From assembly GCF_003721565.1 (NCBI RefSeq), contig NZ_RJJE01000009.1:1178934-1242933 (forward strand): 64,000 bases of DNA, written 5' to 3'. Position numbers and translations under genes: made by a program. Positions 2,400 to 63,532 of this stretch are shown piece after piece (positions within the stretch are counted from its first letter, which is position 1; every line of letters begins with the position of its first letter). The notes below the pieces were generated by a model. That model was not told the origin of the DNA. It did no database searches and was given only the letters and a program-made list of their open reading frames with translations. The DNA comes from Rufibacter immobilis (GTDB taxonomy: Bacteria > Bacteroidota > Bacteroidia > Cytophagales > Hymenobacteraceae).

Positions 2400-2434
2400 G
2401 TTTAGCGGCCGTTTTTCCAGAATAAGGCCTAAAC
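2400..2434. repeat. Dispersed palindrome, degenerate copy
   Basis: GTTTAGCGGC on the left and GGCCTAAAC on the right flank a T5-rich centre, the architecture shared by the window's palindrome family, but the two arms no longer pair perfectly. It lies upstream of the trpG-like gene. Confidence 0.6.
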
Positions 2435-2480
2435 CAGAGAGAACCGCTTATGATGAACTCCGGCGAAACAGAAAATAAAG

Positions 2481-2526
2481 TGTGCGTTTAGGGGCCGTTT
2501 TCAGAAAAACGGCCCCTAAACGCACA
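2481..2526. repeat. Dispersed palindrome, near-perfect copy (core variant GGGGCCG/CGGCCCC)
   Basis: The arms TGTGCGTTTAGGGGCCG and CGGCCCCTAAACGCACA are fully complementary around a short T/A centre. The outermost TGTG/CACA is specific to this locus. It lies 6 bases beyond the cvpA stop codon (minus strand), where a terminator or 3'-end hairpin is expected. Confidence 0.9.
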
Positions 2527-2532
2527 TAATTT

Positions 2533-3042
2533 TTAAGCGAAGGAATCCAGGGCCTGCCGGCCGAAGGGAATCACCCATTGCACAAAAGACCAGGCACCGG
2601 GCGCGGCATCCAGGTAATACGGGTACACTTCAGATTCCCGCACGGTCTGCAGGGCTTTATCTAAGCCCGTGGCATTGGCGAAGTACACCAGGAGGCAGAT
2701 GGCGAAACCCCACTTGGCAGCCCCAATACCGGCACCAATCACGTTGTCCAGGAGGCCCAGCGGCGTAAGATGTACTCCTTTCTTGATAACCTTGCCAATG
2801 GCCCGCACCGCAAACCCAATCCCAATGAACACCAGCAAAAACGGGAGAAACGGCAGAAAGCCGGCGCTGTCGCCCAGCCATTCATGAATGGGCGGCGTCA
2901 CCAGCCCCACCAGCTTCATCCCGAACACGGTGATGATCACCAACGAAGCCAGAGAGGCAATCTCCAGCACCAGCCCTTTAAAGAAACCTTTAAAAGCACC
3001 GTAGGCCACAGGCAATAGCAGAAAGAGGTCAAAGGTGCTCAC
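2533..3042 (-). CDS. CvpA family membrane protein
   Basis: The 169-residue inner-membrane protein has four hydrophobic segments (about residues 5-22, 26-46, 62-82 and 105-125) and the FDLFLLLPVAYGAFKGFFKGLVLEIASL start characteristic of the CvpA/colicin V production family. The family is widespread and linked to envelope integrity, but no biochemical activity is firmly assigned. It lies 12 bases from the upstream yqeY gene on the same strand, and the two look like an operon that ends at the palindrome at 2481-2526. Confidence 0.85.
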   Translation of the reverse strand: MSTFDLFLLLPVAYGAFKGFFKGLVLEIASLASLVIITVFGMKLVGLVTPPIHEWLGDSAGFLPFLPFLLVFIGIGFAVRAIGKVIKKGVHLTPLGLLDNVIGAGIGAAKWGFAICLLVYFANATGLDKALQTVRESEVYPYYLDAAPGAWSFVQWVIPFGRQALDSFA

Positions 3043-3054
3043 GCAACAGAGGGC

Positions 3055-3516
3055 TTAGGCGTTAGGGTTGTTCAGGAGCGCGTTCACGGCGTTGGAAATG
3101 GCTTTGCCATCGGCTTGGCCGGCCAGTTCACGGGAAGCAACGCCCATCACCTTGCCCATGTCTGAAGGTCCCAACGCGCCCACGCGTTGAATGATCTCCA
3201 GAAGGCGCTCACGCAGATCTCCTTCGTCTAGCTGCTGGGGCAGGAATTCCTCAATCACGGCCAGTTCGGCCAGTTCCACTTCCTCCAGATCTGTGCGGGA
3301 CTGGGCACGGTACACCTCGGCAGACTCACGGCGCTGTTTGGCGGCTTTGGTTAACAGCTTCAGCTCCGTATCTGGGGTAAGTGCCTGCACGCCGCCTTTC
3401 TCGGTTTCGGCCAGCAAAATCTGCGACTTAATAGCGCGCAGGGCTTGCAGGCGGGTCTTATCTTTCGCCAGCATGGCTTGTTTTATGCCGGCTTCTACTT
3501 TTTCTTTCAGGCTCAT
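3055..3516 (-). CDS. yqeY: GatB/YqeY domain-containing protein
   Basis: This 153-residue protein begins MSLKEKVEAGIKQAMLAKDKTRLQALRAIKSQI and has the helical LPQQLDEGDL...GPSDMGKVMGVASRELAGQADGK pattern of stand-alone YqeY proteins. It resembles the tRNA-binding tail of GatB. YqeY is proposed to influence tRNA-dependent amidation or aminoacyl-tRNA metabolism, but its exact role is unsettled. It is divergent from pdxJ and upstream of cvpA. Confidence 0.87.
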   Translation of the reverse strand: MSLKEKVEAGIKQAMLAKDKTRLQALRAIKSQILLAETEKGGVQALTPDTELKLLTKAAKQRRESAEVYRAQSRTDLEEVELAELAVIEEFLPQQLDEGDLRERLLEIIQRVGALGPSDMGKVMGVASRELAGQADGKAISNAVNALLNNPNA

Positions 3517-3585
3517 AGTTTATGTAGGTAAAGGCGCCGCAGCACCCGGTAAGAAATCATTAGCCAAGTGACGCCAAGTTTCTTT

Positions 3586-3593
3586 TATCTTTG
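3586..3593 (+). promoter_or_regulatory. Promoter -7 box (TATCTTTG) for pdxJ
   Basis: TATCTTTG matches the TAnnTTTG consensus and lies 36 bases before the ATG at 3630. It overlaps the possible TTG start at 3591, so that upstream start cannot be used if transcription begins here. No convincing -33 box was seen. Confidence 0.5.
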
Positions 3594-3629
3594 TCCATCT
3601 TAATGCATGAACGCCAACGTAAGAGCAAC

Positions 3630-4346: not shown

Positions 4347-4358
4347 TGCGGCACTTCC

Positions 4359-4395
4359 CGTTTTCGGCCTTTTTTCAGAAAAACAGCCCCGAAAC
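4359..4395. repeat. Dispersed palindrome, variant copy after pdxJ
   Basis: CGTTTTCGGCC on the left and CAGCCCCGAAACG on the right surround a T6/A5 centre. The AGGGG of the common core is replaced by TCGG/CCGA, so the outer arms still pair. It lies 12 bases after the pdxJ stop codon. Confidence 0.75.
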
Positions 4396-4416
4396 GCACC
4401 GTAACCGGTACTTGGT

Positions 4417-6565: not shown

Positions 6566-6568
6566 TTC

Positions 6569-6684: not shown

Positions 6685-6730
6685 ATTGCGTTTAGGGGCT
6701 CTTTTTGGAAAAAGAGCCCCTAAACGCAAT
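6685..6730. repeat. Dispersed palindrome, perfect copy (22-bp arms)
   Basis: A perfect 46-bp palindrome with 22-bp arms around a central GG. The core is GTTTAGGGGCTCTTTTT with outer ATTGC/GCAAT. It lies 2 bases beyond the stop codon of the minus-strand EnvC-like gene and between convergent genes, so it could end transcription from both sides. Confidence 0.93.
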
Positions 6731-13798: not shown

Positions 13799-13854
13799 GC
13801 CTACTCCCGTTTAGGGGCCGATTTTGGAAAAACAGCCCCTAAACGGGAGTAGGC
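13799..13854. repeat. Dispersed palindrome with long locus-specific arms
   Basis: The outer stem GCCTACTCCCGTTTAGGGGC pairs perfectly over 20 bp with the right end. The inner CGATTTT/AAAACA part is partly mismatched. The first nine outer bases are not shared with other copies. It is downstream of the enoyl-CoA hydratase stop codon (minus strand) and upstream of the flippase gene. Confidence 0.9.
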
Positions 13855-15491: not shown

Positions 15492-15537
15492 GTTGCGTTT
15501 AGGGGCTCTTTTCCAAAAAAGAGCCCCTAAACGCAAC
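15492..15537. repeat. Dispersed palindrome, near-perfect copy
   Basis: GTTGCGTTTAGGGGCTCTTTT pairs with the right arm ending in GCCCCTAAACGCAAC. The centre is CCA flanked by T/A runs. It lies in the convergent gap between the 14917 gene and infB, next to two ordinary terminators. Confidence 0.92.
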
Positions 15538-18918: not shown

Positions 18919-18989
18919 ATGGGTGGCCTTGACTACGTCACGTTTTTGCCTTGTTTCCCGGAAAATAGGCCTAAAACGGCACCCACCCT
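18919..18989. repeat. Divergent dispersed palindrome inside the nusA-infB intergenic gap
   Basis: CGTTTTTGCC pairs loosely with GGCCTAAAACG around TTTCCCGGAAAA, and an outer GGGTGGC/GCACCCACC stem encloses it. It lies between nusA (stop 19028) and infB (start 18859) within an operon of essential genes, so it cannot be a full terminator unless infB has its own promoter. Confidence 0.6.
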
Positions 18990-21083: not shown

Positions 21084-21138
21084 AAAGAAAGAAGCCCTGC
21101 CTGGAGTGAGTACCAAGCCGGGCTTCTTTCTTTTTTTG
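21084..21138. terminator. Hairpin terminator between feoB and the rimP region
   Basis: AAAGAAAGAAGCCC pairs with GGGCTTCTTTCTTT, with further partial pairing of TGCCTGG inside, and is followed by a run of seven T on the plus strand (A-rich on the other side). It can act in both directions. It directly abuts the palindrome at 21135. The rest of the gap 20868-21182 holds only the rimP promoter and a degenerate palindrome. Confidence 0.7.
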
Positions 21139-21180
21139 CGTTTAGGGGCTCTTTTTCTAAAAACAGCCTCTAAACGCAAA
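21135..21180. repeat. Dispersed palindrome after feoB
   Basis: TTTGCGTTTAGGGGCTCTTTTT pairs with the right arm ending CAGCCTCTAAACGCAAA with two mismatches. It ends 2 bases before the feoB stop codon on the minus strand. Confidence 0.9.
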
Positions 21181-24589: not shown

Positions 24590-24635
24590 TTTCCGTTTAG
24601 GGGCCGTTTTTCCAAAAAGAGCCGCTAAACAGAAA
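24590..24635. repeat. Dispersed palindrome, slightly degenerate copy
   Basis: TTTCCGTTTAGGGGC pairs with GCCGCTAAACAGAAA with two mismatches around TTTTTCCAAAAA. It is in the convergent gap between the Bax-inhibitor gene and murF-alr. Confidence 0.85.
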
Positions 24636-24749
24636 TGCCACGCTAACCTTGCTTCCAGTTCTTTATCACCATCTCACATTTTGGCGCACTCACCAACACT
24701 ACCTCAGAAAATTGGCTTTAGCTAAACTCTTCCCGTGAAGGACGAATCA

Positions 24750-24787
24750 CGTTTAGGGGCTGTTTTTGGAAAAACGGCCCCTAAACG
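24750..24787. repeat. Dispersed palindrome abutting the murF-alr stop codon
   Basis: CGTTTAGGGGCTGTTTTT pairs with the arm ending CGGCCCCTAAACG (one G-T type mismatch). It touches the murF-alr stop codon (24788-24790). The sequence outside the core is not complementary here. Confidence 0.9.
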
Positions 24788-27259
24788 CTAGGCGTTGAAA
24801 AAGACCCGCTTTACCCGCGTACTCACGTTGGTGAGCAGCTCATACGGAATAGTGCCAATGCGGGCGGCAAGCTCTGTGAGCGGCAGTTCTTCGCCAAACA
24901 CCAGCACTTCGTCTCCGGCGCGCACATCTAAGCCCGTCACGTCTACCATGCACATGTCCATGCACACGTTCCCGATGATGGGTGCGCGCTGCCCGTTGAT
25001 GAGCACTTCGCCCACCCCGTTCCCGAAGCGGCGGTCATACCCATCGGCGTAGCCGATGGCGATGGTGGCGGTCTGTTTGTGGGTGGTGGCTATGCCCCGG
25101 CGGCTGTAGCCCACGGTATCACCGGCTTTGATGGATTTCACCTGCGAGACGGTGGTTTTCAGCTGTCCCACGGTTTGCAGGCTGCTCTGCTCCGACCCCG
25201 AAGACTCCACGCCGTACAGCCCTATGCCTAACCGCACCATGTCAAAAGCCGCCTCCTCGCCGAAGCGCACAATGCCCGCCGAGTTGAGAATGTGCTTGGT
25301 AACGGAGTAACCCAGCCCCTGCTCCACCTTGGCCGACATTTGCCGGAATCTGGCAATCTGCTCCCGGGTAAAATCATTGTAGAGCGCCTCATCGGCGCCA
25401 GCCAAATGGCTGAACACGCTCTGCACCCGCACGTGGGGCACCTGGTCCAGCACGGCTAAAGCTTCTTCCAGCTCGGCGTCATCAAAGCCCAGGCGGTGCA
25501 TGCCGGTATCCAGTTTCAGGTGAATGGCAGGTGTTTGGGGGCTTTTCTCGGGGAAATAGTCCAGGAACCGGTGCAACAGGTCTGGTGAATAGATTTCGGG
25601 CTCCAGGCTGTACTGCTGCATTTTCAGGAAGCTGTCTGGGCTGGGGTTCATGACCATGATGGGCAGCGTGATGCCGTGCTCACGGAGGGCCACGCCCTCG
25701 TCTGTGTAGGCCACGGCCAGATAGTCCACGCGGTGGAACTGCAGCAGGTTGCCAATCTCATAGGAACCGGCCCCGTAGGCAAAGGCTTTGACCATGACCA
25801 TGATTTTGGTCGGGCCCGGAACTTTGGAGCGGTAGTAATTGAGGTTGTGCACCAGCGCGTCCAGGTTTACTTCCAGCACCGTACCGTGCACCTGCTGCTG
25901 CAGGGCGGCCACAATTTTCTCAAACTGGAAGATGCGCGCGCCCTTCACCAGAATGGTTTCCTGGCGGAAGGTTTCTGAGCGGAGCTGGCCCAGGAAAGAA
26001 TCGGTGCCCAGGTAGAACTCGCTGCCCGCCGGGAACAGGTCCTGGTGACGGGTGATGATATCCCCGATGCCAATGACACGGTCTACACCCCGGGCAGTCA
26101 CCTCCTGCGCCACCTGCTGGTACAGCGCCTTTTCCTCTACCCCGGCCTCCAGTAAATCTGAGACAATGAGGGTTTTCCGGCCACGCCGCGCCTGCTGGCC
26201 CAGTACGTCTAAGGCAATGCGCAGACCGGCCAGGTCATTGTTATAGGTATCATCTATGACGTAGCACCCGTTGATAGCTTCTTTACGCTCCAGACGCATG
26301 GCCACGGGAGCCAGGCGCTCAAACCGGGCGGGCAGTTCCTCGGGCTTCACACCCAGGTAGAGCAGCGCCGCCAGACAGTGCAGGGCATTTTCCAGCGAGG
26401 CTTCATCAGAGAAAGGCAGCACCAGGTCCTGGCCCTGCCCCGCATACCTGAACCTGACCTTGGTTTTGCCCTGGTGCATTTCCAGCACGTTCAGCTGCAC
26501 CTGGGCCGAAGGATGTCCTTGAGTACTCCACCCAAAACCCGGCAAACCAGCCTGCTGTACCGCCTCCCGCACCGTGGCCTGGTCTGCACAATACACCAAT
26601 TGCTGCACGTGCTCAAACAGCTTCAGTTTCTCCTCCAGTTTCTGGGCGGTAGACGCAAAACCTTCGTCATGCGCGGGCCCCAGGTTGGTGAACACGCCAA
26701 GGGTAGGTTGCAAGACGCTGGCCAGATGGGCCATCTCCTCAGGCTGCGAGATACCGGCCTCAAACACGCCCACGGTATGGCTCTCGTTGATCTGCCACAC
26801 CGAGAGCGGCACCCCAATCTGGGAGTTATAGCTTCGGGGGCTCTTGACCACGCGTTCAGACACGCTCAACAGCTGCGCCAGCCATTCTTTGACAATTGTT
26901 TTGCCGTTGCTGCCCGTGATCCCGATGACCGGAATATGGAACTTGCGCCGGTGGTAAGCCGCCAGCCGCTGCAAGGCCTGCACGCTGTTGCTCACCAGCA
27001 GAAAGTTGGCTTCTGGATACGTAGACAGATCCATGAGTCCGGAGGCGTCTTCCACCACAAACTGCCGCACCCCAGCCTCATACAGCTCAGGGAGGTACTG
27101 GTGCCCGTCATGGAACTCGCCCCGTATGGCGAAAAACACCGACGACACCGCATTGGCTATTTTACGGCTGTCGGTGAGCAGGTGCTGCACCGGGTAGGCG
27201 CCCGGGCACTGGACCAACATACCTCCCGTTACTTGGGCAATTTCTTTGAAACTAAACAT
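24788..27259 (-). CDS. murF-alr: Bifunctional UDP-MurNAc-tripeptide D-Ala-D-Ala ligase / alanine racemase
   Basis: The 823-residue fusion has a MurF part with the ATP loop GITGSNGKT near residue 113, SPRSYNSQIGVPLSVW and DDTYNNDLAGLRIAL. It is joined near residue 455 to an alanine racemase that carries the PLP lysine in MVMVKAFAYGAGS (about residue 488) and a C-terminal VGYSRRG with the catalytic Tyr. One chain thus makes D-alanine and adds D-Ala-D-Ala to the peptidoglycan precursor; such fusions are known in Bacteroidota. The start at 27257-27259 is chosen because the promoter at 27280 lies just upstream and excludes the longer reading. Confidence 0.95.
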   Translation of the reverse strand: MFSFKEIAQVTGGMLVQCPGAYPVQHLLTDSRKIANAVSSVFFAIRGEFHDGHQYLPELYEAGVRQFVVEDASGLMDLSTYPEANFLLVSNSVQALQRLAAYHRRKFHIPVIGITGSNGKTIVKEWLAQLLSVSERVVKSPRSYNSQIGVPLSVWQINESHTVGVFEAGISQPEEMAHLASVLQPTLGVFTNLGPAHDEGFASTAQKLEEKLKLFEHVQQLVYCADQATVREAVQQAGLPGFGWSTQGHPSAQVQLNVLEMHQGKTKVRFRYAGQGQDLVLPFSDEASLENALHCLAALLYLGVKPEELPARFERLAPVAMRLERKEAINGCYVIDDTYNNDLAGLRIALDVLGQQARRGRKTLIVSDLLEAGVEEKALYQQVAQEVTARGVDRVIGIGDIITRHQDLFPAGSEFYLGTDSFLGQLRSETFRQETILVKGARIFQFEKIVAALQQQVHGTVLEVNLDALVHNLNYYRSKVPGPTKIMVMVKAFAYGAGSYEIGNLLQFHRVDYLAVAYTDEGVALREHGITLPIMVMNPSPDSFLKMQQYSLEPEIYSPDLLHRFLDYFPEKSPQTPAIHLKLDTGMHRLGFDDAELEEALAVLDQVPHVRVQSVFSHLAGADEALYNDFTREQIARFRQMSAKVEQGLGYSVTKHILNSAGIVRFGEEAAFDMVRLGIGLYGVESSGSEQSSLQTVGQLKTTVSQVKSIKAGDTVGYSRRGIATTHKQTATIAIGYADGYDRRFGNGVGEVLINGQRAPIIGNVCMDMCMVDVTGLDVRAGDEVLVFGEELPLTELAARIGTIPYELLTNVSTRVKRVFFNA

Positions 27260-32290: not shown

Positions 32291-32330
32291 ACGTTTAGCG
32301 CCTGTTTTTGGAAAAAGATGCGCTAAACGT
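32291..32330. repeat. Dispersed palindrome, covariant variant (AGCGC/GCGCT)
   Basis: ACGTTTAGCGC and GCGCTAAACGT pair perfectly. The usual AGGGGC/GCCCCT has changed on both arms in step, which indicates that pairing, not sequence, is maintained. It lies next to the stop codon of the EamA gene at 32331. Confidence 0.9.
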
Positions 32331-33855: not shown

Positions 33856-33901
33856 ATGTCGTTTAGGGGCTCTTTTTCTGAAAACAGCCCCTAAACGACA
33901 T
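33856..33901. repeat. Dispersed palindrome between convergent recX and DUF4230 genes
   Basis: ATGTCGTTTAGGGGCTCTTTTT pairs with the arm ending CAGCCCCTAAACGACAT, with a single CT/CA mismatch. The outer ATGTC/GACAT is locus-specific. It is 8 bases after recX and 5 bases after the DUF4230 stop, the only candidate terminator for both. Confidence 0.92.
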
Positions 33902-37963: not shown

Positions 37964-38019
37964 AGCGGTGGGCGTTTAGGGGCTCTTTTTGGAAAAAGAG
38001 CCCCTAAACGCCCACCGCT
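37964..38019. repeat. Dispersed palindrome, perfect with 27-bp arms
   Basis: A perfect 56-bp palindrome with GG at its centre. The usual GTTTAGGGGCTCTTTTT core is extended outward by AGCGGTGGGC and its complement GCCCACCGCT, found at no other copy. It lies 11 bases beyond the yfhO stop (minus strand). Confidence 0.95.
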
Positions 38020-41596: not shown

Positions 41597-41635
41597 GCGT
41601 TTAGGGGCTGTTTTTAGAAAAAGAGCCCCTAAACG
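41597..41635. repeat. Dispersed palindrome upstream of fkbM
   Basis: GCGTTTAGGGGCTGTTTTT pairs with the arm ending GAGCCCCTAAACG (one mismatch). The flanks are not complementary. It is the last copy before the AT-rich island. Confidence 0.88.
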
Positions 41636-41683
41636 GGAGGCGCTTCCTGAAGTGGTGGCTATATAGTATATTGGGTAGCCAAG

Positions 41684-43984: not shown

Positions 43985-44141
43985 TCAACCAAGAGGGAGC
44001 AAACAAAGAAAAATGGTCACCTTATGATTTTTATTGGACTAGGTGAACCAATGCCAGCCACACTTCCTTCTCCTTTTTCATCAAATATTTTCTGTAGTTG
44101 CCTTATCTTTAGCGTCCGGTTTCTTGTTGGCATTATTAGGT

Positions 44142-45371
44142 ATGGCTTTTCTCAGGACAAAATCACTCTTTGTTAGCGGCATCACCGCCGTTTTTTGCGG
44201 TCTTCTCTTGCTGGGTTGCCAGAAAGCGGGGAAGAGGAAAAGCTTTTGGGGTGGCAAAGATGACACCAAGGAACCGGTAACGGTACCCGCGGCATTTACG
44301 GCCGATAGTGCCCGGCAGCTGGCCCTGAAGCTGGATTCAGTATTCAAGTATTTCCACAAACGGCGGGGCTTCAACGGCACAGTATTGGTAACCAAGTATG
44401 ACCAGGTCATCTACAAAGGCGCCTTCGGCATGGCCGATTTCTATAAGCGGGATTCCCTTACCGTGGAAACGGCTTTCCAGTTGGCCTCGGTGTCTAAGCA
44501 GTTCACGGCCATGGCCATCATGATGCTGAAGGAAGACGGGGAGCTCACCTACGAGGACAGCGTGCAGCAATACATCCCAGATTTCCCGTACCACGGCATT
44601 ACCATTAGGCAGTTGCTCACTCACCAGAGCGGCTTGTCTAATTACACCTATTTCAGCGATAAGCTTTGGCCAGACCGCCAGAAGAACCTCACCAACCAGG
44701 ATGTCATCAACCTCATGGTGGCCCACCAGCCCAAGCCTTACTACCGGCCCAACACCCGGTTTGACTACAGCAACACTGGCTACAGCCTGCTGGCTTCCAT
44801 TGTGGAGAAAGTAGCCGAGCAACCCTTCGCCGATTTCCTGCGGGAGCGCATTTTTGAGCCGCTGGAGATGACCCGCACCTTCACCTACAGCCCAGACGTA
44901 GCCACGCTCACCGGCAAAATTGCCACCGGCCACACCCGCTTCCGGCAGAAGCGCACCTCAGATTACTTAGACACCGTGCTGGGCGACAAAGGCATCTATT
45001 CTACCGTGGAAGACCTTTATAAATGGGACCAGGCGCTGTACACGCAGAAACTGGTGAGCAAAGAAACCTTGCAGGAAGCCTTTACCGGTTACCGGCCCGA
45101 GAAGAAGAAAGACGAAGACTACGGCTTTGGCTGGCGCATCAGGCCCATTGAAAACGGCGATACCATTGTGTACCACGGCGGGCTATGGCACGGCTTCTCC
45201 TCTTATATGCTCCGTCACCCCAAAGAGCACAGCGCCCTCATCGTGCTCAGCAACCTGCCCAACGGAAGTTTCAGCTACCTGCAGGAAATCAGGAAGTTAT
45301 TGTATCCTGCTCACCCAGACAGTGCTGCCCATACCACAGGCCCTGGCATTGCCGCCAGAACCAAGCGGTAA
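44142..45371 (+). CDS. Serine beta-lactamase-like (class C/penicillin-binding) lipoprotein
   Basis: From the ATG at 44142 the product is 409 residues, beginning with a lipoprotein signal (GITAVFCGLLLLGC). The beta-lactamase/D-Ala-D-Ala peptidase fold has the SxxK motif in LASVSKQFTAMAIMML, YxN in FDYSNTGYSLL and a HGG motif in IVYHGGLWHGFSSYML. It is a periplasmic serine hydrolase; activity on beta-lactams is not implied. Longer upstream starts exist but carry a second hydrophobic stretch. Its stop codon TAA forms the outer end of the longest palindrome (45369-45442). Confidence 0.88.
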   Translation: MAFLRTKSLFVSGITAVFCGLLLLGCQKAGKRKSFWGGKDDTKEPVTVPAAFTADSARQLALKLDSVFKYFHKRRGFNGTVLVTKYDQVIYKGAFGMADFYKRDSLTVETAFQLASVSKQFTAMAIMMLKEDGELTYEDSVQQYIPDFPYHGITIRQLLTHQSGLSNYTYFSDKLWPDRQKNLTNQDVINLMVAHQPKPYYRPNTRFDYSNTGYSLLASIVEKVAEQPFADFLRERIFEPLEMTRTFTYSPDVATLTGKIATGHTRFRQKRTSDYLDTVLGDKGIYSTVEDLYKWDQALYTQKLVSKETLQEAFTGYRPEKKKDEDYGFGWRIRPIENGDTIVYHGGLWHGFSSYMLRHPKEHSALIVLSNLPNGSFSYLQEIRKLLYPAHPDSAAHTTGPGIAARTKR

Positions 45372-45442
45372 AAAGCATCTCCTTTGCGTTTAGGGGCTCT
45401 TTTCCCAAAAAGAGCCCCTAAACGCAAAGGAGATGCTTTTTA
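45369..45442. repeat. Dispersed palindrome, longest copy (35-bp perfect arms, includes the stop codon)
   Basis: A 74-base structure with perfect 35-bp arms around CCCA. The left arm begins with the upstream gene's own TAA stop and TAAAAAGCATCTCCTTTG, then the common core. The right arm repeats all of this in reverse, giving GCTTTTTA at the end. The 18 outer bases are unique to this locus, so gene-flanking sequence has been mirrored. The hairpin plus its T-run could terminate transcription from either side. Confidence 0.96.
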
Positions 45443-45788: not shown

Positions 45789-45847
45789 TCTTCCACCAGC
45801 AGACAGGAGACGCCGCAAAGAATCTGATAGTGGGTTTTAAACGTGTG

Positions 45848-45885
45848 TTTTAGGCCCGATTTTGGAAAAACAGCCCCTAAACGCC
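45848..45885. repeat. Dispersed palindrome, degenerate copy
   Basis: TGTTTTAGGCCCGATTTT pairs loosely with the arm ending ACAGCCCCTAAACG. The right half is canonical and the left half has decayed. Confidence 0.65.
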
Positions 45886-47890: not shown

Positions 47891-47931
47891 GAAGAAAGAA
47901 TTGTTAATTGTAATCTTTTTTTGCGTTTTGG

Positions 47932-47963
47932 CCTACTTTCCAGTAAAACAGGCTAAAAACGCA
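47932..47963. repeat. Dispersed palindrome, divergent copy after the LTA-synthase-like gene
   Basis: GCGTTTTGGCCT and AGGCTAAAAACGC pair with small bulges. It is 42 bases after the stop codon. Confidence 0.6.
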
Positions 47964-48241: not shown

Positions 48242-48336
48242 GGAGCAAAAACCGTTTAGGTTGTTGCTTGTTAAGGATTACTTTTCCGTTTAGGGGCTGT
48301 TTTTTAGAAAACAGCCCCTAAACGTTTTTATGCTCC
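48242..48336. repeat. Dispersed palindrome, composite/interrupted copy
   Basis: An intact core (48287-48324, CGTTTAGGGGCTGTTTT/AAAACAGCCCCTAAACG) has a right flank TTTTTATGCTCC. That flank pairs not with the adjacent left flank but with GGAGCAAAAACCGTTTAGG 26 bases further left (48242-48260). A second left half therefore precedes the element, as if material had been inserted between the outer and inner parts of one stem. Confidence 0.85.
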
Positions 48337-48444: not shown

Positions 48445-48490
48445 TTCCCGTTTAGGGGCCGTTTTTCAAAAAAGAGCCTCTAAACGGAAA
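48445..48490. repeat. Dispersed palindrome in the probable 5' leader of the DsbA-family gene
   Basis: TTCCCGTTTAGGGGCCG pairs with GAGCCTCTAAACGGAAA with a few mismatches around TTTTTCAAAAAA. It follows directly after a promoter box, unlike most copies, which follow stop codons. Confidence 0.88.
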
Positions 48491-49621: not shown

Positions 49622-49665
49622 GTGCGTTTAGGGGCTCTTTTTCAGAAATCGGCCCCTAAACGCAC
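49622..49665. repeat. Dispersed palindrome after the small lipoprotein gene
   Basis: GTGCGTTTAGGGGCTCTTTTT pairs with the arm ending CGGCCCCTAAACGCAC with two mismatches. The outer GTGC/GCAC is locus-specific. Confidence 0.9.
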
Positions 49666-49761: not shown

Positions 49762-50217
49762 ATGAGACTGGAAGACGAACTAAAGCAGAAATCTTTTAAG
49801 AGCCCCCACCACCGCATGATTGTGAACGTCATGTTTACGGGCAACTGGCTCCTGAAGGAACTGAGCTGCCAATTGAAGCCATTGGGGTTATCCTCGCAAC
49901 AGAACAACGTGCTGGGCATTCTGCGCGGGCAGTACCCCAATCCCGCCACGTTGGGCCTCATTCAGGAACGCATGATGGACCGCGACTCCAACGCCACCCG
50001 CCTGGTAGACAAACTACTGGAGAAAGGCTTGGTTACGCGTTGCCAGTGCAGCGAAAACCGCCGCAAGGTAGACATCATCATCACGGAGAAAGGCCTGGAG
50101 CTGCTGAAAGAAACCGATAAGATCATTCAAGGCTTAGAAGAAAGATTCAAGCAGATTAACCCAGACGAAGCCGCTTTGATTGGCGAGCTCATGGACAAGA
50201 TCAGAGACTGTCACTAA
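49762..50217 (+). CDS. MarR family transcriptional regulator
   Basis: The 151-residue winged-helix protein has the MarR layout: an N-terminal dimer helix, LSSQQNNVLGILRGQYPNPATLGLIQERMMDRDSNATRLVDKLLEKGLVTRCQCSENRRKVDIIITEKGLELL (helix-turn-helix, recognition helix and wing), and a C-terminal dimer helix. MarR proteins are usually ligand- or redox-responsive repressors. Cys residues at about 93 and 95 (TRCQCSENRR) close to the wing could be a redox sensor, an inference. It precedes the OYE gene by 57 bases. Confidence 0.9.
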   Translation: MRLEDELKQKSFKSPHHRMIVNVMFTGNWLLKELSCQLKPLGLSSQQNNVLGILRGQYPNPATLGLIQERMMDRDSNATRLVDKLLEKGLVTRCQCSENRRKVDIIITEKGLELLKETDKIIQGLEERFKQINPDEAALIGELMDKIRDCH

Positions 50218-50234
50218 TATTTTTTTACCTATAT

Positions 50235-50250
50235 AGTTGTATATACAACT
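50235..50250. promoter_or_regulatory. Palindromic operator upstream of the OYE gene
   Basis: AGTTGTATATACAACT is a perfect 16-bp palindrome 24 bases before the OYE ATG. It shares TTGTATATACAA with the operator before marR and is probably bound by that MarR protein. Confidence 0.75.
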
Positions 50251-50274
50251 TATGTTTTAACAACAAAATAAACG

Positions 50275-51396
50275 ATGAGCCAAATAGAAAACCAACCGCT
50301 GTTGCAGCCTTACCAGAAAGGCGCTTTACACCTGAACAACCGTTTAGTCATGGCCCCTATGACCCGCAGCCGGTCTAACAACCCAGAGAACGTACCTAAT
50401 GAACTGAACGCTGAATACTACGCCCAGCGCGCCAGCGCCGGCCTCATCATCTCAGAAGGTACACCGGTAAGTCCGCAGGGCGTGGGCTACATCAACATCC
50501 CGGGTATTTACTCGGCTGCGCAGGTAGAAGGCTGGAAAACGGTAACCAGCGCCGTGCACAGCAAAGGCGGCAAAATCTACGCCCAGCTGTGGCACGTGGG
50601 TCGCATGTCGCACCCAGATTTCCACAACGGCGAGTTACCCGTGGCTCCCTCGGCTATCAACCCCAATGACCAGGCTTTCACGGCCGAAGGTTTCAAACCA
50701 ACCGTCACGCCCAGAGCGCTGGAAGTTGAGGAGATCAAAGGTATTGTGGAGGATTTCAGAAACGCGGCGGCCAACGCCGTGAAAGCCGGTTTCGATGGCG
50801 TGGAAATCCACTCCTCCAACGGCTACCTGTTCCACCAGTTCTTCAACCGCTGCTCCAACCAACGCACCGATGCCTACGGCGGCACCATTGAGAACCGTGC
50901 CCGCCTGCTGTTTGAGGTACTGGACGCCGTAAAAGAAGTCATCGACCTAAGCCGCGTGGGCGTTCGCCTGAACCCGTCTATGCACGAGCAGTTCGGGATT
51001 ACGGTAGACGAGGAAACCGCCCCTACGTTTGAGTACATCGTGAAGCGCCTGAACGACTACAATCTGGCGTATCTGCACCTCACGGAGGCTTCGCCTAAAG
51101 TGGCTGAGTTACCGTATGCCATCAAAGAAGTAGCCAAGCACTTCCGCCCGCTGTACAACGGCACGCTCATCATCAACGGCGGCTTCACGCAGGAAACCGG
51201 TAATAAAGTATTGGAAGACGGCCTTGCCGATTTAGTGGCTTACGGCCGACCGTTCATCGCCAACCCAGACCTGGTGGAGCGCTTCGCGGAGAATGCCGAA
51301 CTGAACGCCCCGGACTACAACACGTTCTACAGCAACACCGGCGCCGTGGGCTACACAGATTATCCTACCCTGGCCCAAACCGTAGAAGCCAGATAA
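50275..51396 (+). CDS. Old-yellow-enzyme family alkene reductase / NADH:flavin oxidoreductase
   Basis: The 373-residue FMN-dependent TIM-barrel enzyme has MAPMTRSRSN, ISEGTPVSPQGVGY, AQLWHVGRMSHPD and GFDGVEIHSSNGYLFHQFFNRCSNQRTDAYGGTIENR, with the His/Asn substrate-binding pair near residues 178 and 181. It also has a C-terminal GRPFIANPDL. It resembles NemA/OYE, which reduces the C=C bond of electrophilic enals, enones, maleimides or nitro compounds. It forms an electrophile-response pair with marR. Confidence 0.92.
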   Translation: MSQIENQPLLQPYQKGALHLNNRLVMAPMTRSRSNNPENVPNELNAEYYAQRASAGLIISEGTPVSPQGVGYINIPGIYSAAQVEGWKTVTSAVHSKGGKIYAQLWHVGRMSHPDFHNGELPVAPSAINPNDQAFTAEGFKPTVTPRALEVEEIKGIVEDFRNAAANAVKAGFDGVEIHSSNGYLFHQFFNRCSNQRTDAYGGTIENRARLLFEVLDAVKEVIDLSRVGVRLNPSMHEQFGITVDEETAPTFEYIVKRLNDYNLAYLHLTEASPKVAELPYAIKEVAKHFRPLYNGTLIINGGFTQETGNKVLEDGLADLVAYGRPFIANPDLVERFAENAELNAPDYNTFYSNTGAVGYTDYPTLAQTVEAR

Positions 51397-51425: not shown

Positions 51426-51458
51426 GGAAAGGGCCGCACGCATTGTGTGGCCTTTTCC
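51426..51458 (+). terminator. Terminator hairpin after the OYE gene
   Basis: GGAAAGGGCCGCAC pairs with GTGTGGCCTTTTCC with one mismatch, 29 bases after the stop codon. The dispersed palindrome at 51455 overlaps its right end. Confidence 0.7.
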
Positions 51459-51498
51459 GTTTAGGGGCTCTTTTTCCAAAAATAGGCCCTAAACGGAA
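51455..51498. repeat. Dispersed palindrome after the OYE gene
   Basis: TTCCGTTTAGGGGCTCTTTTT pairs with the arm ending TAGGCCCTAAACGGAA with two mismatches. It is fused to the end of an ordinary terminator hairpin. Confidence 0.88.
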
Positions 51499-51570
51499 CA
51501 AGCTCCAGACAGTTCTATGGCGCGGATTTACTTTCGTGCTTTGCATTTGCACTCACTGCTCAGAATGCGA

Positions 51571-51664
51571 AACCCACCCCTACCCCTCCGAGGAGGGGAG
51601 TTTCTCCAAGTAGAGTTTTCCTAATTGGCGATAATTCCCCTCCTCGGAGGGGTAGGGGTGGGTT
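51571..51664. repeat. Large GC-rich inverted repeat (29-bp perfect arms)
   Basis: AACCCACCCCTACCCCTCCG, continuing into GAGGAGGGGA, is repeated as its exact complement after a 36-base AT-richer spacer. Its sequence is unrelated to the dispersed palindrome family and resembles C-rich CCCACCCCTACCCC dispersed repeats of many Bacteroidota genomes. It lies in the 435-base gap before the helicase, which otherwise holds a terminator, a palindrome and a promoter. Confidence 0.9.
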
Positions 51665-54781: not shown

Positions 54782-54832
54782 CCTTTGCGTTTAGAGCCTC
54801 TTTTTCTGAAAAAGGCCCCTAAACGCCAAAGG
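54782..54832. repeat. Dispersed palindrome after the helicase gene
   Basis: CCTTTGCGTTTAGAGCC pairs with GGCCCCTAAACGCCAAAGG, with the outer CCTTT/AAAGG locus-specific and one extra C on the right arm. It is 10 bases after the stop codon. Confidence 0.88.
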
Positions 54833-57942: not shown

Positions 57943-57976
57943 AAAGAGGCGGTTCCTTTATGGGAACTGCCTCTTT
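57943..57976 (+). terminator. Terminator after carB
   Basis: AAAGAGGCGGTTCC pairs with GGAACTGCCTCTTT around a 6-base loop with one mismatch, 52 bases after the stop codon. It adjoins the palindrome at 57974. Confidence 0.75.
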
Positions 57977-58018
57977 CCGTTTTTGGGCTGCTTTTGGAAA
58001 AACAGCCCAAAAACGGAA
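57974..58018. repeat. Dispersed palindrome, covariant variant (GTTTTTGGGC)
   Basis: TTCCGTTTTTGGGCTG pairs with CAGCCCAAAAACGGAA. Compared with the usual GTTTAGGGGC the A and one G have changed to T on the left and the complementary bases have changed on the right. Confidence 0.88.
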
Positions 58019-58069
58019 AACGTCCTGCCGCAAGTTTGAGTGCAGCTTAAACTTGCGGCAGGACGTTTT
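58017..58069. repeat. Inverted repeat with 21-bp perfect arms
   Basis: AAAACGTCCTGCCGCAAGTTT and its exact complement enclose an 11-base loop (58038-58048). It starts within the last A residues of the preceding palindrome and is unrelated to its core. Confidence 0.9.
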
Positions 58070-58070
58070 C

Positions 58071-58172
58071 TGGCGCGAGCTTGCAGCTCGTGTCCGGGCG
58101 TTGCCGATAAAATTTTCGGCTTAGGAATTTTTGCTTCAGAAATGCGTGGCCACGAGCTGCAAGCTCGCGCCA
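58071..58172. repeat. Inverted repeat with 22-bp perfect arms (GCGAGCTTGCAGCTCG type)
   Basis: TGGCGCGAGCTTGCAGCTCG(TG) at 58071-58092 is mirrored exactly at 58151-58172. Each arm contains its own GAGCTTGCAGCTC dyad, and a small GCCGA/TCGGC hairpin lies in the spacer. Confidence 0.9.
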
Positions 58173-58267: not shown

Positions 58268-58313
58268 ATTCCGTTTTCGGGTTGTTTTCAAGAAAACAAC
58301 CCGAAAACGGAAT
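58268..58313. repeat. Dispersed palindrome, perfect but with a rewritten core
   Basis: A perfect 46-bp palindrome (22-bp arms, AA centre) with ATTCCGTTTTCGGGTTGTTTTC as one arm (read as ATTCCGTTTTCGGG then TTGTTTTC). It has the size and T-rich apex of the family although AGGGGC is replaced on both arms. It lies 40 bases after the AGCS stop codon (minus strand). Confidence 0.88.
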
Positions 58314-58352
58314 CTCATATCTTGCTACGTGATACCTGCTACTTGATACCCT

Positions 58353-59732
58353 TTAAAACCGCTGTATTTGCCCGGCTTTCAATCTAGCCAGATACTCTTT
58401 CGTGGCCGCCATCACCCTAGGCGACAGCAACAATGCGCACGTCATGGTAGGAACGGCCATAAATGCAAAGGCGGTATCCACCAGGTTGATCACTGAGGTA
58501 ATGGTGACAATGGCCCCAATAATGATGGTGAGGATATAGAAGTAGTCATACAGGCGGCGGTACTTGAACCCGAACAGGTAGGTGAAGCACTTGGAGCCGT
58601 AGTAGCAGTAAGAGAACAGAGAGGTAAACGCGAAGATGAACACGCAGACCACCAGCAGGTATTTGCCCACCTGGGGCATGGCTTCGCCAAAAGCCGCCGC
58701 CGTCATGGAAACTCCGTTGCCGGAATTCGTTTCCCAAACGCCCGTCACCAGAATGGCCAGCCCCGTCATGGTGCAGACCACAATGGTGTCAATGAACGGT
58801 TCCCACATAGCCACCAAGCCTTCGCGTACCGGCTCATTGTTCTGCGATTCGCCGTGCATCATGGCGGCAGTGCCAATGCCGGCCTCATTGGAGAATGACG
58901 CGCGGCGGGCACCCATGATGATTACCTGCATCACGGCTCCGCCCATCATGGCATTGCCAGTAAACGCATCTTCAAAAATAAGGGAGAACATGCCGGGCAC
59001 AGCCGAGATATTGGAGAAGATGATGTACAGCACCGAGCCCGTGTAGAGCACCACCATGAACGGCACCAGTTTGGAAGCCACCGCCGCAATGCGTTTGAGG
59101 CCGCCAAACAAAATGATAGACACCAGCAGCGCCATGGCCATGCCCATGATGAGGTTAGACACAAACGTATCTTCCCCTACCACGCCGCTGGGCTTGAGCA
59201 CCACATCGGTGATGATCTGGGTAAGTTGATTGGCCTGAAAGAGCGGCAGGGTCCCAAACAAACCGGCAAAAGCGAACAAGATGGACAAAGGCTTCCATTT
59301 CTTGCCCAACCCCTGTGTAACCATGTACATGGGTCCGCCTTCCACGGCACCCAATTCATTCTTGCCGCGGTACATGATGGAAAGGGTACAGGTAAAAAAT
59401 TTGGTGGCCATGCCCACAAATGCGCTCACCCACATCCAGAACAGCACGCCGGGTCCGCCCATGGCAATGCCCACGGCCACCCCACTGATGTTGCCCATGC
59501 CAATGGTAGAAGCCAGGGCGCTGGCCATGGCCTGAAACGGCGTGATTTGCCCGGCTGCGTTAGGATCCTGGTACTTGCCCTGCAAGATACGGATAGAATG
59601 ACCCATCATCCGGAACGGGATAAGACGGCAGTACAGCATCAGGAATAAGCCACCGCCCATCAATAAAATCAGCAAGGGCATTCCCCAAGCCAGACTACTG
59701 GCCTCCGCCAGAAAAGCATCTATTTTTTCCAC
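58353..59732 (-). CDS. Alanine/glycine:cation symporter (AGCS) family protein
   Basis: The 459-residue protein has about eleven membrane segments. It has the AGCS signatures GNISGVAVGIAMGGPGVLFWMWVSAFVGMATKFFTCTLSIMYR and GARRASFSNEAGIGTAAMMHGES, the latter near residue 275. Members import alanine or glycine with Na+ or H+. It is monocistronic, with a promoter box at 59761. Confidence 0.93.
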   Translation of the reverse strand: MEKIDAFLAEASSLAWGMPLLILLMGGGLFLMLYCRLIPFRMMGHSIRILQGKYQDPNAAGQITPFQAMASALASTIGMGNISGVAVGIAMGGPGVLFWMWVSAFVGMATKFFTCTLSIMYRGKNELGAVEGGPMYMVTQGLGKKWKPLSILFAFAGLFGTLPLFQANQLTQIITDVVLKPSGVVGEDTFVSNLIMGMAMALLVSIILFGGLKRIAAVASKLVPFMVVLYTGSVLYIIFSNISAVPGMFSLIFEDAFTGNAMMGGAVMQVIIMGARRASFSNEAGIGTAAMMHGESQNNEPVREGLVAMWEPFIDTIVVCTMTGLAILVTGVWETNSGNGVSMTAAAFGEAMPQVGKYLLVVCVFIFAFTSLFSYCYYGSKCFTYLFGFKYRRLYDYFYILTIIIGAIVTITSVINLVDTAFAFMAVPTMTCALLLSPRVMAATKEYLARLKAGQIQRF

Positions 59733-60915: not shown

Positions 60916-60953
60916 TACTCTCCCATGACGTTCCTCGGAACGAAGTAATGATG

Positions 60954-60995: not shown

Positions 60996-61021
60996 CTCTC
61001 TCCACCTTCATCAGACTCTCT

Positions 61022-62527
61022 ATGCATCTACTTAGACAGTATCTGCATTGCGTGTTCTATACAGATACCAGGGCCCTCTCCCTCATGAGAATATGGGTGG
61101 CCAGTGTTCTGTTGCTGGACATTGGCATACGGGCTTCAGATATAGAGGCGCATTATTCCAACATGGGGGTTCTGCCCTTGCATGTATTACACGCCAATGC
61201 CTGGAACCAATATTTCTTCTCCCTACACGCTTTAAGTGGCATGTGGCAGTTCCAGGCCATTCTTTTTGCCATAGCGGCGGCGGCGGCGGTCTGTCTGCTG
61301 CTGGGCTACCATACCCGTTGGGCCACTGCCATCTCCTGGATCTTGCTGGTGTCTCTGCACAACCGCAACCCGCTCATTACCCAATCCGGCGACAGCCTGC
61401 TGCGCATGTTGCTCTTCTGGGGCATGTTCCTGCCCTGGCACCGGCACTATTCTGTAGATGCCCGTCGCTCCCTCACCTCAGAAACCTCCAGCCACTACCT
61501 AAGCGCCGCCACTGCCGCCTATATCATGCAGGTGGGGTGGGTCTATGTTTTCACCGCCTTGCTGAAGAGCGGCCCAGACTGGACTGAAGACGGCACCGCC
61601 CTGTACTACGCCCTCAGCCTGGACCAGATCCTGATGCCCGGCGGCCGAATTCTCTACCAGTTTCCCCTCCTGATGGAGCAGCTCACCCATGCCACCTATT
61701 TTCTGGAATTGTGGCTGCCGTTTGTCTTGCTCATTCCCTGGCGGAACACGTGGTTCAGGATGCTGTTTTTTATCGCCATCGTAGGCCTGCACATTGGCAT
61801 TAGCCTTACCCTGTTTGTGGGGCTCTTTTACCTCATCAGTATTTCGGCGGTGATAGGGCTCTTGCCTACGCCGGTTATGAACGTGGTAGACCAGTACCTA
61901 CGCAAAGGGTACGCCAAGTTCCAGAAGCGCTGGGCCCGGCGGGGGGCAAACTGGCGTTCTCCCCTTGATCTGCAGGTACAACTCAAATGGACCTCGCCTA
62001 GGTGGGCTCAGGCTTTCCCGCGTAAATATGTGAGAGAAGGATTAGTACTGGTAGCCATGGTTTTGGCGTTCTGGTGGAACCTGAGCACCTTAGGCAAAAC
62101 GTACTTACAGGTACCAGAGCGCCTGCACTGGGCCACGCTGGTGCCCAGGCTGGACCAAAACTGGAGCATGTTCGCGCCCAATGTTTTCAAAGACGATGGC
62201 TGGTATGTGCTGGAAGGATCAACCAATTCCAATAAAAAAGTGGACCTGAACCAGCAGGGCAAAGAGCCCGACACCACCAAACCTGCCTCTGTCATGAGCC
62301 TCTTCAAAAATGACCGCTGGCGCAAATACTCAGAGAACTATCTGTTTACCCCTAATGAGTACATGCGGCCTTACTACTGCTTTTACCTGCTGCGCCGCTG
62401 GAATGAGTCTCACCCGCCCGAGGAACAGATTCACGAGCTGTCTGTCATTTACATGAAGGAGTTCTCTTTACCAGACTACAAAACCGCTCCCATTCAGCGC
62501 GAAGTACTCTGCCACTGCAAACCATAG
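61022..62527 (+). CDS. HTTM domain-containing membrane protein
   Basis: The 501-residue protein has about six to eight membrane segments and the horizontally transferred transmembrane (HTTM) pattern: RALSLMRIWVASVLLLDI, YSNMGVLPLHVLH, HNRNPLITQSGDSLLRMLLFWGMFLPWHRHYSVD and VYVFTALLKSGPDWTEDGTALYYALSLDQ. A soluble C-terminal part contains DQNWSMFAPNVFKDDGWYVLEG. The domain is related to vitamin-K-dependent gamma-carboxylase, but the bacterial reaction is unknown. Confidence 0.85.
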   Translation: MHLLRQYLHCVFYTDTRALSLMRIWVASVLLLDIGIRASDIEAHYSNMGVLPLHVLHANAWNQYFFSLHALSGMWQFQAILFAIAAAAAVCLLLGYHTRWATAISWILLVSLHNRNPLITQSGDSLLRMLLFWGMFLPWHRHYSVDARRSLTSETSSHYLSAATAAYIMQVGWVYVFTALLKSGPDWTEDGTALYYALSLDQILMPGGRILYQFPLLMEQLTHATYFLELWLPFVLLIPWRNTWFRMLFFIAIVGLHIGISLTLFVGLFYLISISAVIGLLPTPVMNVVDQYLRKGYAKFQKRWARRGANWRSPLDLQVQLKWTSPRWAQAFPRKYVREGLVLVAMVLAFWWNLSTLGKTYLQVPERLHWATLVPRLDQNWSMFAPNVFKDDGWYVLEGSTNSNKKVDLNQQGKEPDTTKPASVMSLFKNDRWRKYSENYLFTPNEYMRPYYCFYLLRRWNESHPPEEQIHELSVIYMKEFSLPDYKTAPIQREVLCHCKP

Positions 62528-62589
62528 CGCCTGTTTTCTGCCAGATACGTAAAAGCAGTATGTTTCACCTTAACCCGAAAGGAGACAAG

Positions 62590-62769
62590 ATGCCACAAGG
62601 AGATAAATCTGCCTACACAGACAAACAGAAACGGCAGGCCCAACACATAGAAGAAAGCTACGAGAAAAAAGGCCTAAGCGAGGAAGAAGCCGAGAAACGG
62701 GCCTGGGCCACCGTGAACAAGCAAGACGGCGGCGGCAAGAAAAGTGGCTCGGGCCGCAAGCACTCGTAA
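62590..62769 (+). CDS. Small hydrophilic protein, 59 residues, unknown function
   Basis: From the ATG at 62590, which follows an AGGAG-type site, it reads MPQGDKSAYTDKQKRQAQHIEESYEKKGLSEEEAEKRAWATVNKQDGGGKKSGSGRKHS. The YTDKQKRQAxHIxxSYxxxGxxxxxAxxRAWATVNK pattern occurs in small conserved proteins of many bacteria, some annotated as plasmid stabilisation proteins without proof. A strong palindrome follows. Confidence 0.75.
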   Translation: MPQGDKSAYTDKQKRQAQHIEESYEKKGLSEEEAEKRAWATVNKQDGGGKKSGSGRKHS

Positions 62770-62791
62770 TTTGCAGCTCTACTGAAATGAC

Positions 62792-62855
62792 AAAACACAG
62801 GATCCGTTTAGGGGCTGTTTTTGGAAAAACAGCCCCTAAACGGATCCTGTGTTTT
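62792..62855. repeat. Dispersed palindrome, perfect with 31-bp arms
   Basis: A 64-bp perfect palindrome with GG at its centre. The GTTTAGGGGCTGTTTTT core is extended outward by AAAACACAGGATCC and its complement, unique to this locus. It lies between convergent genes, 23 bases after one stop and 19 before the other. Confidence 0.95.
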
Positions 62856-62874
62856 ACGCCAAGGATTCTGTTAA

Positions 62875-63378
62875 TTACCTCTTCACCTTCCGCAGCCACT
62901 TGGCCACACCACCGGCTACCACACCCGCTAAAAGATAATACCCAATGGTAAGGGCCTGAGTCTGCTTGGTCCGGTTGCTGGGAGCGGTACCCAAGCCCAT
63001 AGGTCCGGGCAAGGCCACTCCGCCCACTCCCGCCAAAGCGCCCAGAATAGTGCCGCGCCAGATGGCTTTTTTACCACCGCCGGTTAAACTGTAGTACAAC
63101 CCATTGGAGATAATGTCGCCTACCAGTGACCAGGTATGCAATTGGTCTCTAGGAGGCGGAGTCTGGCCGACGTAGCGCAAGCCTTTGGCAATGGCGCGCA
63201 TGCCCAGAATATCCATGCGGGGAGCATTGGGGTAAAAGCGGCGTACGCTTTCATGTACCAAAGTCACGGCCACTGCCCCCGCCAAACCGCTCAGCCCAAT
63301 CCTGAGCCATTTGTTCAAGCGCTTTTTAGAGGCCTTCTTGGTGGTTTTATGTCGTTTCTTGTCTTTCTTGGATCCCAT
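62875..63378 (-). CDS. Hypothetical membrane protein with basic N-terminus
   Basis: The 167-residue protein has a Lys/Arg-rich start (MGSKKDKKRHKTTKKASKKRLNKW). Three glycine-rich hydrophobic segments follow (about residues 30-43, 108-125 and 142-160), the second and third of GALAGVGGVALPGPMGLG and YYLLAGVVAGGVAKW type. I do not recognise the family. It looks like a small inner-membrane protein with a cytoplasmic basic tail. It is convergent with the gene at 62590. Confidence 0.65.
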   Translation of the reverse strand: MGSKKDKKRHKTTKKASKKRLNKWLRIGLSGLAGAVAVTLVHESVRRFYPNAPRMDILGMRAIAKGLRYVGQTPPPRDQLHTWSLVGDIISNGLYYSLTGGGKKAIWRGTILGALAGVGGVALPGPMGLGTAPSNRTKQTQALTIGYYLLAGVVAGGVAKWLRKVKR

Positions 63379-63494
63379 AGCGTCTACGTTCTTTAGCTTC
63401 GTATTAATACTGAAGGCCTTCAGCCCTCCAAAGAATTTTAACCGATTTCAGCCATAAAAGTTGTCTTAGGCTCAGCCCTGTTCCCTTACAAGTG

Positions 63495-63532
63495 GCGTTT
63501 AGGAGCCGTTTTTGCCAAAACTGCCCCAAAAC
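63495..63532. repeat. Dispersed palindrome, degenerate copy upstream of the DEAD-box gene
   Basis: GCGTTTAGGAGCCG pairs loosely with CTGCCCCAAAAC around TTTTTGCCAAAA. It precedes the promoter box at 63553, so unlike the dsbA-family leader it is not transcribed from it. Confidence 0.65.

Follow-up and report, generated by a model that had tools for sequence, protein, structure and literature searches.

Within a 64-kb stretch of the Rufibacter immobilis genome (C1:1178934-1242933, hereafter the window; the genome comprises 4.77 Mb in 17 contigs) lies a family of intergenic palindromes built on a rigid 36-bp dyad. The family is restricted to a single genus, Rufibacter as delimited in our genome set, which comprises R. 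immobilis itself and 15 congeners (G001-G015), 16 genomes in all. We see about an even chance that it is a genus-private palindrome of the repetitive extragenic palindromic (REP) kind, owing its spread to an elusive mobiliser and partly recruited as the apex of transcription terminators; mobility and termination are both deduced from sequence. An initial annotation of the window had pointed out about 34 copies and offered bidirectional terminators, mRNA 3'-end protectors or an element like REPs or miniature inverted-repeat transposable elements (MITEs) as explanations. Genes were predicted by home-made codon-usage scoring, and gene context was counted in 864 kb of R. immobilis (own) DNA and in 434 kb of the congener G012.

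Anatomy and abundance

The core consists of two inverted 10-mers with 16 bases between them, GTTTAGGGGC-N16-GCCCCTAAAC. Its flanks are paired as well (consensus TTTSC/GSAAA), which brings the unit to about 46 bp in all. Each unit can be described as two half-sites GTTTnnGGsCtnnTTT, 36 bp from end to end, with a 4-base centre that is free. Matches to GTTTAGGGGC with at most one mismatch number 48 in the window, where 6.2 are expected and none of 100 shuffles reaches that figure. Twelve window copies match both 10-mers exactly with the spacing of 16, which is about 1.7 times the density of the whole genome, which has 517 exact copies and none of the reversed pattern. The palindrome family is therefore real. 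With up to 4 mismatches in the 20 positions, 240 copies were found in the own sample, or roughly 1,300 per genome, so that the earlier figure of well over a thousand holds with degenerate copies included and fails for exact ones. At up to 6 mismatches, the own sample gives 352 copies versus 29 for the reversed control, and G012 gives 243 versus 61. A covariance model (R1), built from 53 copies of 12 genomes with rows chosen on pairing, finds 25 distinct places in the window at the threshold of E<=0.01; the 34 copies first counted include weaker ones. In eleven congeners (351.5 kb) it gives 228 hits, both strands counted.

The spacing is close to invariant. A scan of 464 kb of own DNA for gaps of 14-18 accepted 154 copies, 142 of them with a gap of 16 (the reversed sequence gave 7 copies), and in a regular-expression search for half-site pairs with gaps of 4-44, 16 was again the gap in 149/155 own, 83/84 G012 and 58/63 other pairs (290/302 overall). 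The centre varies while the unit length stays constant: 13 kinds were seen among 15 copies in species without a burst, and 29 kinds among 38 copies in G004 (reverse complements pooled). Solitary half-sites are rare, 2 standing alone versus 297 within palindromes in the own sample and 3 versus 193 in G012. The arms outside the core are genuine and extend over 0 to 19 bp.

Gene context

The placement outside coding regions was upheld by our own gene call, none of the 25 window copies lying inside a predicted gene. Proximity to stop codons was borne out narrowly, 14 of the 25 lying within 50 nt of one and 15 within 60 nt. In the own sample, where genes cover about 80%, predicted genes contain 1/128 copies at up to 1 mismatch, 6/240 at up to 4 and 33/352 at up to 6; the G012 figures are 3/67 and 10/172 at the first two cut-offs. 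Hence neither a low copy number nor equal occurrence within genes, which the initial annotation had named as grounds for dismissing the family, was found. Among own gaps of at least 40 bp, a copy (up to 4 mismatches) is present in 61/104 convergent, 118/318 same-direction and 25/109 divergent ones, and in G012 in 47/59, 59/153 and 26/63. REPs prefer 3' ends and convergent gaps, as here. In same-direction gaps the centre of own copies lies a median of 42-46 nt past the upstream stop and about 150 nt before the next start (cut-offs of 1 and 4 mismatches); the G012 medians at these cut-offs are 46-70 and 145-218 nt.

Canonical terminators, taken as a 7-bp stem followed by five T in six and lying outside the elements, are scarce in own gaps of at least 60 bp (26/94 convergent, 21/303 same-direction). 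Insertion just behind terminators is seen in congeners at carB and at ORF 50275-51396; as a rule it was rejected, since among own same-direction gaps an element is present in 6/21 with a canonical terminator and in 127/282 without one.

Taxonomic range and species dialects

With R1 under stricter filters, 16/16 genus genomes were positive, each with at least 57-61 hits (at most 61 scored per genome, both strands counted), while 7 of 92 other genomes, all of the same family, gave 1-4 hits each with a best E of 9.6e-7. The covariance-model search of related genomes that had been proposed thus succeeded throughout the genus and yielded few hits beyond it. A looser sequence pattern likewise matched in 16/16 genus genomes and in none of 394 other genomes of the class, the own genome being the only congeneric one among the 395 drawn. 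Its counts of 4 to 648 per genus genome vary with the dialect and cannot be read as copy numbers. Copy numbers cannot be compared between species, because the patterns favour some dialects and model hits were counted only to 61 per genome. One contig of a viral collection contains the element (L182, 1275-1310), directly behind a GC-rich terminator-like hairpin. A 999-residue protein of the window has relatives in Rufibacter species (87-92% identity in the best segment) and in Sabulibacter ruber (90%).

Congeners keep the same plan with other letters, for example GTTTTsGGGCTCATTTC in G012, so that one may speak of species dialects. These were compared at orthologous 3' ends, using only copies that passed a pairing filter (genes 51 and 52 share one gap; region L057 was rejected as an ortholog source because it is not syntenic). 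Between species, copies at the same site are alike at 26.8 of 36 positions (140 pairs) versus 26.2 for copies at different sites (1803 pairs), meaning that sites tend to persist while sequence follows the species. Within genomes, likeness is 31.4 in G012, 30.3 in own DNA, 30.0 in G001, 29.7 in G013 and 21 to 28 in the others, the species with a burst standing at 30-31. The 3' end of ORF 62875-63378 bears an intact element in 10 of 13 genomes having the gene, own included, with the centre 42-51 nt after the stop; the site after the ORF ending at 47890 bears one in 8 of 14, the own genome not among the 8. Behind ORF 58353-59732 (window 58268-58352, L072) the own and G010 flanks are near-identical, more alike than their genes, perhaps as a result of recent exchange.

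Pairing of the arms and terminator features

Among 127 own copies with at most one mismatch, the flanking positions -2 to -5 covary (80 to 103 paired, 38 to 61 expected, z about 9), whereas the inner positions pair at chance (position 11, 85 against 83.9 expected; 12, 65 against 57.1; 17, 97 against 96.3). This contrast matches what is expected of arms copied outward. By eye, the own inner dinucleotides TG, TC and CG mix freely between halves. In G012 a single inner haplotype predominates and position 6 is matched between halves (z 6.7, partly favoured by row selection). In G004, position 5 is paired in 32/38 copies against 12 expected, with four pair types. Covariation in an alignment (A1) whose rows had been selected on pairing was not used as proof.

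A hairpin selected in the transcript should show more G.U than A.C mispairs in the sense strand. The control, 34 intrinsic terminators from the genus that each have a single non-standard pair, does so (22 G.U, 6 A.C, 6 others; p 0.002). In same-direction copies, the core and two flanking pairs hold 71 G.U and 74 A.C in own DNA (132 copies) and 48 and 49 in G012 (68 copies), and outer arms hold 20 and 20 (99 copies); unlike the control, they therefore bear no mark of RNA selection, and mRNA 3'-end protection is not supported as a general role. The test says nothing on convergent copies, because those are read from both sides.

T-tracts go with long arms. Outer arms of at least 7 bp occur in 39 of 236 own copies, and a T-tract lies on at least one side of 22/39 of these versus 19/197 shorter-armed copies (G012, 11/21 versus 14/147). 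Behind the stem of same-direction copies, T-tracts are more frequent in the sense than in the antisense orientation, 18 against 6 of 132 in own DNA and 13 against 2 of 68 in G012.

Hairpins scoring at least 14 were found at 19/33 orthologous 3' ends of convergent window genes (genes 47, 48 and 52) versus 11/93 of same-direction ones (genes 40-46 and 50), own not counted; gene 51 was left out, as it shares a gap with 52, and the convergent sites are few, since 47 and 48 have a single gap in common. This score is reached by 1.5% of 400 random, mostly coding stretches of 130 nt. After ORF 62875-63378, all 10 genomes compared (own and nine congeners) have a hairpin of at least 14, with ten different stems; in a second scoring, 9/12 congeners reach 14 and 12/12 reach 11. 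Hairpins of at least 17 follow gene L115:4453-5409 in 10/15 genomes and gene L100:4015-4980 in 10/16, own included in both, and the orthologs below 17 at these two sites include plain losses and decayed copies. The upkeep of long near-perfect hairpins with changing letters at convergent sites fits bidirectional terminators. That proposal of the initial annotation is supported for a minority of copies, chiefly at convergent gene pairs.

Mobility and known repeat classes

The family shares two of the broad-sense REP features listed in PMC12306157, which also describes REPs as usually transcribed: it is seldom coding and forms a 36-46 bp palindrome with a common consensus and several hundred exact copies. 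Of the likeness to REPs or MITEs first proposed, the short, palindromic, extragenic and multicopy character was confirmed; a Y1/RAYT (REP-associated tyrosine transposase) link, a GTAG head and a target duplication were not. Neither a GTAG/GTGG nor a CGTC head was found beside the palindrome, the flank consensus being the one given above. No target duplication appeared in 864 combinations of offset and length (best z 4.3), nor any longer border repeat; a 2-mer at the border (74 against 45 of 167) is due to the self-complementary GC of the paired arms. No Rfam family reached its curated score in the window (0 matches).

Classical REPs mobilised by RAYT-like Y1 transposases of the genus would agree with the abundance and position of the copies and with the presence of Y1_Tnp genes in 15/16 genus genomes. 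The transposase link that was to be looked for is nevertheless missing: element density beside 20 Y1 loci is 0.231/kb against a background of 0.245/kb, several of these loci adjoin other repeats, G006, which has no Y1 match, still has 161 pattern copies, and neither a rayt gene flanked by two inverted copies nor an abundance following rayt was found in the own genome or the genus. This reading is largely refuted and must be considered very improbable. The palindromes adjoining several RAYT-like Y1 genes (L040, L081-L099) are of the types TTCGGGATT..AATCCCGAA, TTCCGGATT..AATCCGGAA and GAATGGGTTAAAACCCATTC. Hairpins of another type, GTAGAGACAAGGC, occur in G012 and others, with none in the own sample.

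Possible origin and function

According to the reading we favour, the unit would have colonised the intergenic 3' ends of genes in waves particular to each species, as the dialects and the high copy numbers in some species suggest. Most same-direction copies appear to be bare, tolerated and decaying, judging from a comparison of few sites. In a minority, found mainly between convergent genes, the element caps a longer stem whose feet are often A/T tracts; given this anatomy and the conservation of the sites, such copies would act as bidirectional intrinsic terminators. At those sites most species retain a paired hairpin despite the turnover of its letters; selection for termination may maintain it, and fold-back template switching in replication, starting at the annealed core and proceeding outward, could copy either arm onto its partner. 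The pattern, chiefly that of the own genome, would best fit a dyad core passed on as such, with an outer part rewritten by fold-back copying. Long arms with A/T tracts also suggest insertion into terminator loops, which the ortholog sites neither prove nor exclude.

A number of observations weigh against this reading. Simple clonal amplification does not give the free mixing of own inner dinucleotides between halves, and a freely moving repeat does not predict the persistence of sites across species. The contrast between inner and outer positions is not general, as G012 shows less covariation in its outer pairs (-2 to -5, z 0.7 to 5.1) and inner position 12 covaries in G004 (28 against 22.7 expected, z 3.4, 38 copies). 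No mobiliser was found in a search that covered Y1 transposases only, and no insertion pair with clean borders was seen in the species pairs compared, the closest being 86% identical. As to termination, T-tracts accompany 14-19% of same-direction copies, modestly above nearby random windows (~9%), and feet of AAA/TTT or longer on both sides, read by eye, are present in 5/10 hairpins after ORF 62875-63378, 7/10 at the L115 site and 3/10 at the L100 site. Four of the 20 strong hairpins at the latter two sites (L162, L180, L181 and L178, the last drifted) are without the standard core, which is therefore not needed there. Exclusion between element and canonical terminator is weak or absent (odds ratios 0.39, 0.49, 0.46 and 2.3, none significant), and divergent gaps of G012 are no poorer in copies than same-direction ones.

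It is rather unlikely that all copies are RNA elements, that is, bidirectional intrinsic terminators or 3'-end-protecting hairpins under transcript selection. Their position shortly after the stop codon in own same-direction gaps, the retention of hairpins at convergent sites, the excess of sense over antisense T-tracts and the paired changes among G004 copies all point that way; the low share of same-direction copies with a T-tract, the equality of G.U and A.C in their mispairs, and the smaller number of hairpins kept at same-direction sites point away from it, and a rigid length with a free centre is not needed by an RNA loop. Rigid spacing around a free centre is, on the other hand, what favours a dyad serving as putative site of a dimeric DNA-binding protein private to the genus; its role would be that of a nucleoid protein, a topoisomerase-like factor or a roadblock, and the dialects would track its specificity. 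The near-absence of solitary half-sites, the independent assortment of own inner half-site variants, and sites that stay while letters change in concert agree with it too. We nonetheless hold such a protein, and with it the idea that function or drive keeps the sites in place, to be unlikely: there is no candidate, outer arms covary despite unrelated sequence, many same-direction sites lose the hairpin, and in G012 the two halves are matched at position 6 (partly through row selection) and one inner haplotype is dominant.

A further possibility, which we regard as unlikely, is a DNA-level dyad under molecular drive, in which a genus-private factor would recognise the palindrome and rewrite copies in place, with no moving and no RNA role. 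Equally doubtful is its corollary, a joint conversion of some thousand fixed sites per genome to a new dialect in each species, with termination at convergent sites as a by-product. Least probable of all is a DNA uptake sequence that forms palindromes at terminators. In having dialects and inverted pairs linked to terminators the family resembles what part of PMC3630211 describes for the Neisseriaceae, but uptake sequences are, according to the same part, commonly intragenic; here 6/240 own copies lie in predicted genes, and this candidate was rejected on the scarcity of solitary half-sites.

Window copies and neighbouring repeats

Copies and related palindromes in the window (window coordinates)
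Feature	Position	Detected by
palindrome copy, exact core	2484..2523	10-mer pattern and R1
degenerate palindrome copy	4358..4397	R1
palindrome copy, exact core, 22-bp perfect arms	6685..6730	R1
palindrome copy, exact 10-mers; arms of 27 bp are 93% complementary, their outer 10 bp perfect	13799..13854	R1
palindrome copy, exact 10-mers, 21-bp perfect arms	15492..15537	R1
weak copy	18940..18979	R1, E 3.5e-5 and 5.3e-4 on two strands
palindrome copy, one mutated arm	21135..21180	R1
palindrome copy, one mutated arm	24593..24632	R1
palindrome copy, exact 10-mers	24749..24788	R1
degenerate copy	32291..32330	R1
palindrome copy, exact 10-mers, between convergent genes	33856..33901	R1
palindrome copy, 27-bp perfect arms	37964..38019	R1
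palindrome copy, exact 10-mers	41597..41636	R1
longest copy, 35-bp perfect arms, A5/T5 near foot (terminator-like); begins at stop codon of ORF 44043-45371	45369..45442	
copy, one arm degenerate	45845..45884	R1
degenerate copy after ORF ending 47890	47923..47962	R1
palindrome copy, exact 10-mers	48286..48325	R1
palindrome copy, one mutated arm	48448..48487	R1
palindrome copy, exact 10-mers	49622..49665	R1
copy directly behind conserved GC-rich terminator of ORF 50275-51396	51450..51503	R1
copy after ORF ending 54771	54787..54826	R1
non-dialect palindrome immediately after carB terminator; arms of 22 bp are 95% complementary	57974..58019	R1
perfect non-dialect palindrome, with one compensated pair changed in the core relative to the G010 ortholog	58268..58313	
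31-bp perfect arms, A4/T4 feet, between convergent genes	62792..62855	
degenerate copy	63495..63534	R1

Other repeats stand near these copies. A second repeat type at window 51571-51664 is an inverted repeat of 32 bp that has GAGGGGTAGGGGTGGG at its ends and encloses a spacer of 30 nt; its exact ends occur 11 times in the own 864 kb, 0 times in the G012 434 kb and 4 times in 522 kb of others, and in some congeners the repeat likewise lies upstream of this gene. Behind carB (window 58016-58112) lie a 25-bp hairpin, GAAAACGTCCTGCCGCAAGTTTGAG, near-identical in G010, and a GGCGCGAG..CTCGTGTCC hairpin that recurs in other congeners. Between ORFs 49762-50217 and 50275-51396 (window 50217-50275) is a TATATAGTTGTATATACAAC palindrome with few changes across ten congener loci, which looks like a regulator operator.

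Comparison with known systems

Our literature searches brought up no paper that we recognised as dealing with the Rufibacter palindromes. The REP families with an identified mobiliser that PMC2817692 describes in part are gammaproteobacterial; PMC12306157 gives predictions of REP-like palindromes from a much wider range, Flavobacterium among them, and CGTC REPs are said in part of PMC3733652 to lack a transposase. The present family adds a case from the Bacteroidota, of REP-like abundance but restricted to one genus (16 genomes) and without Y1/RAYT linkage. Since its sites tend to stay while letters change in concert, the spread and homogenisation of palindromic repeats become testable by comparing strains. 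Its convergent sites show how a repeat may become and remain a two-way terminator despite base changes.

As far as the description in PMC2817692 goes, REPs with RAYT resemble the Rufibacter family in being short extragenic palindromes with a 2-4 base centre, in tens to hundreds of identical copies, and in preserving the palindrome by paired changes; unlike them, the Rufibacter family is without a GTAG/GTGG head or Y1/RAYT link, is rigid at 36 bp, and has long perfect outer arms in part of its copies. With the CGTC-tagged REPs, in what PMC3733652 partly reports, it has in common palindromes without a dedicated transposase, but its flank consensus is without the CGTC head. Replication template-switch hairpins, as partly presented in PMC8794818, show the same perfect arms of unrelated sequence and paired double changes; here the process would act on an abundant repeat. 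Long-armed convergent copies are like intrinsic bidirectional terminators in having a stem with an apex, often an A-tract before and a T-tract behind, and compensated changes, whereas most Rufibacter copies have neither a T-tract nor an RNA-type mispair bias, and terminators would not be expected to have one core in common across hundreds of copies. DNA uptake sequences measure 10-12 bases; the Rufibacter unit is about three times longer, with half-sites almost never single and rarely in genes. What it does share with those of the Neisseriaceae, within the part of PMC3630211 that bears on them, is a set of species dialects and inverted pairs at terminators.

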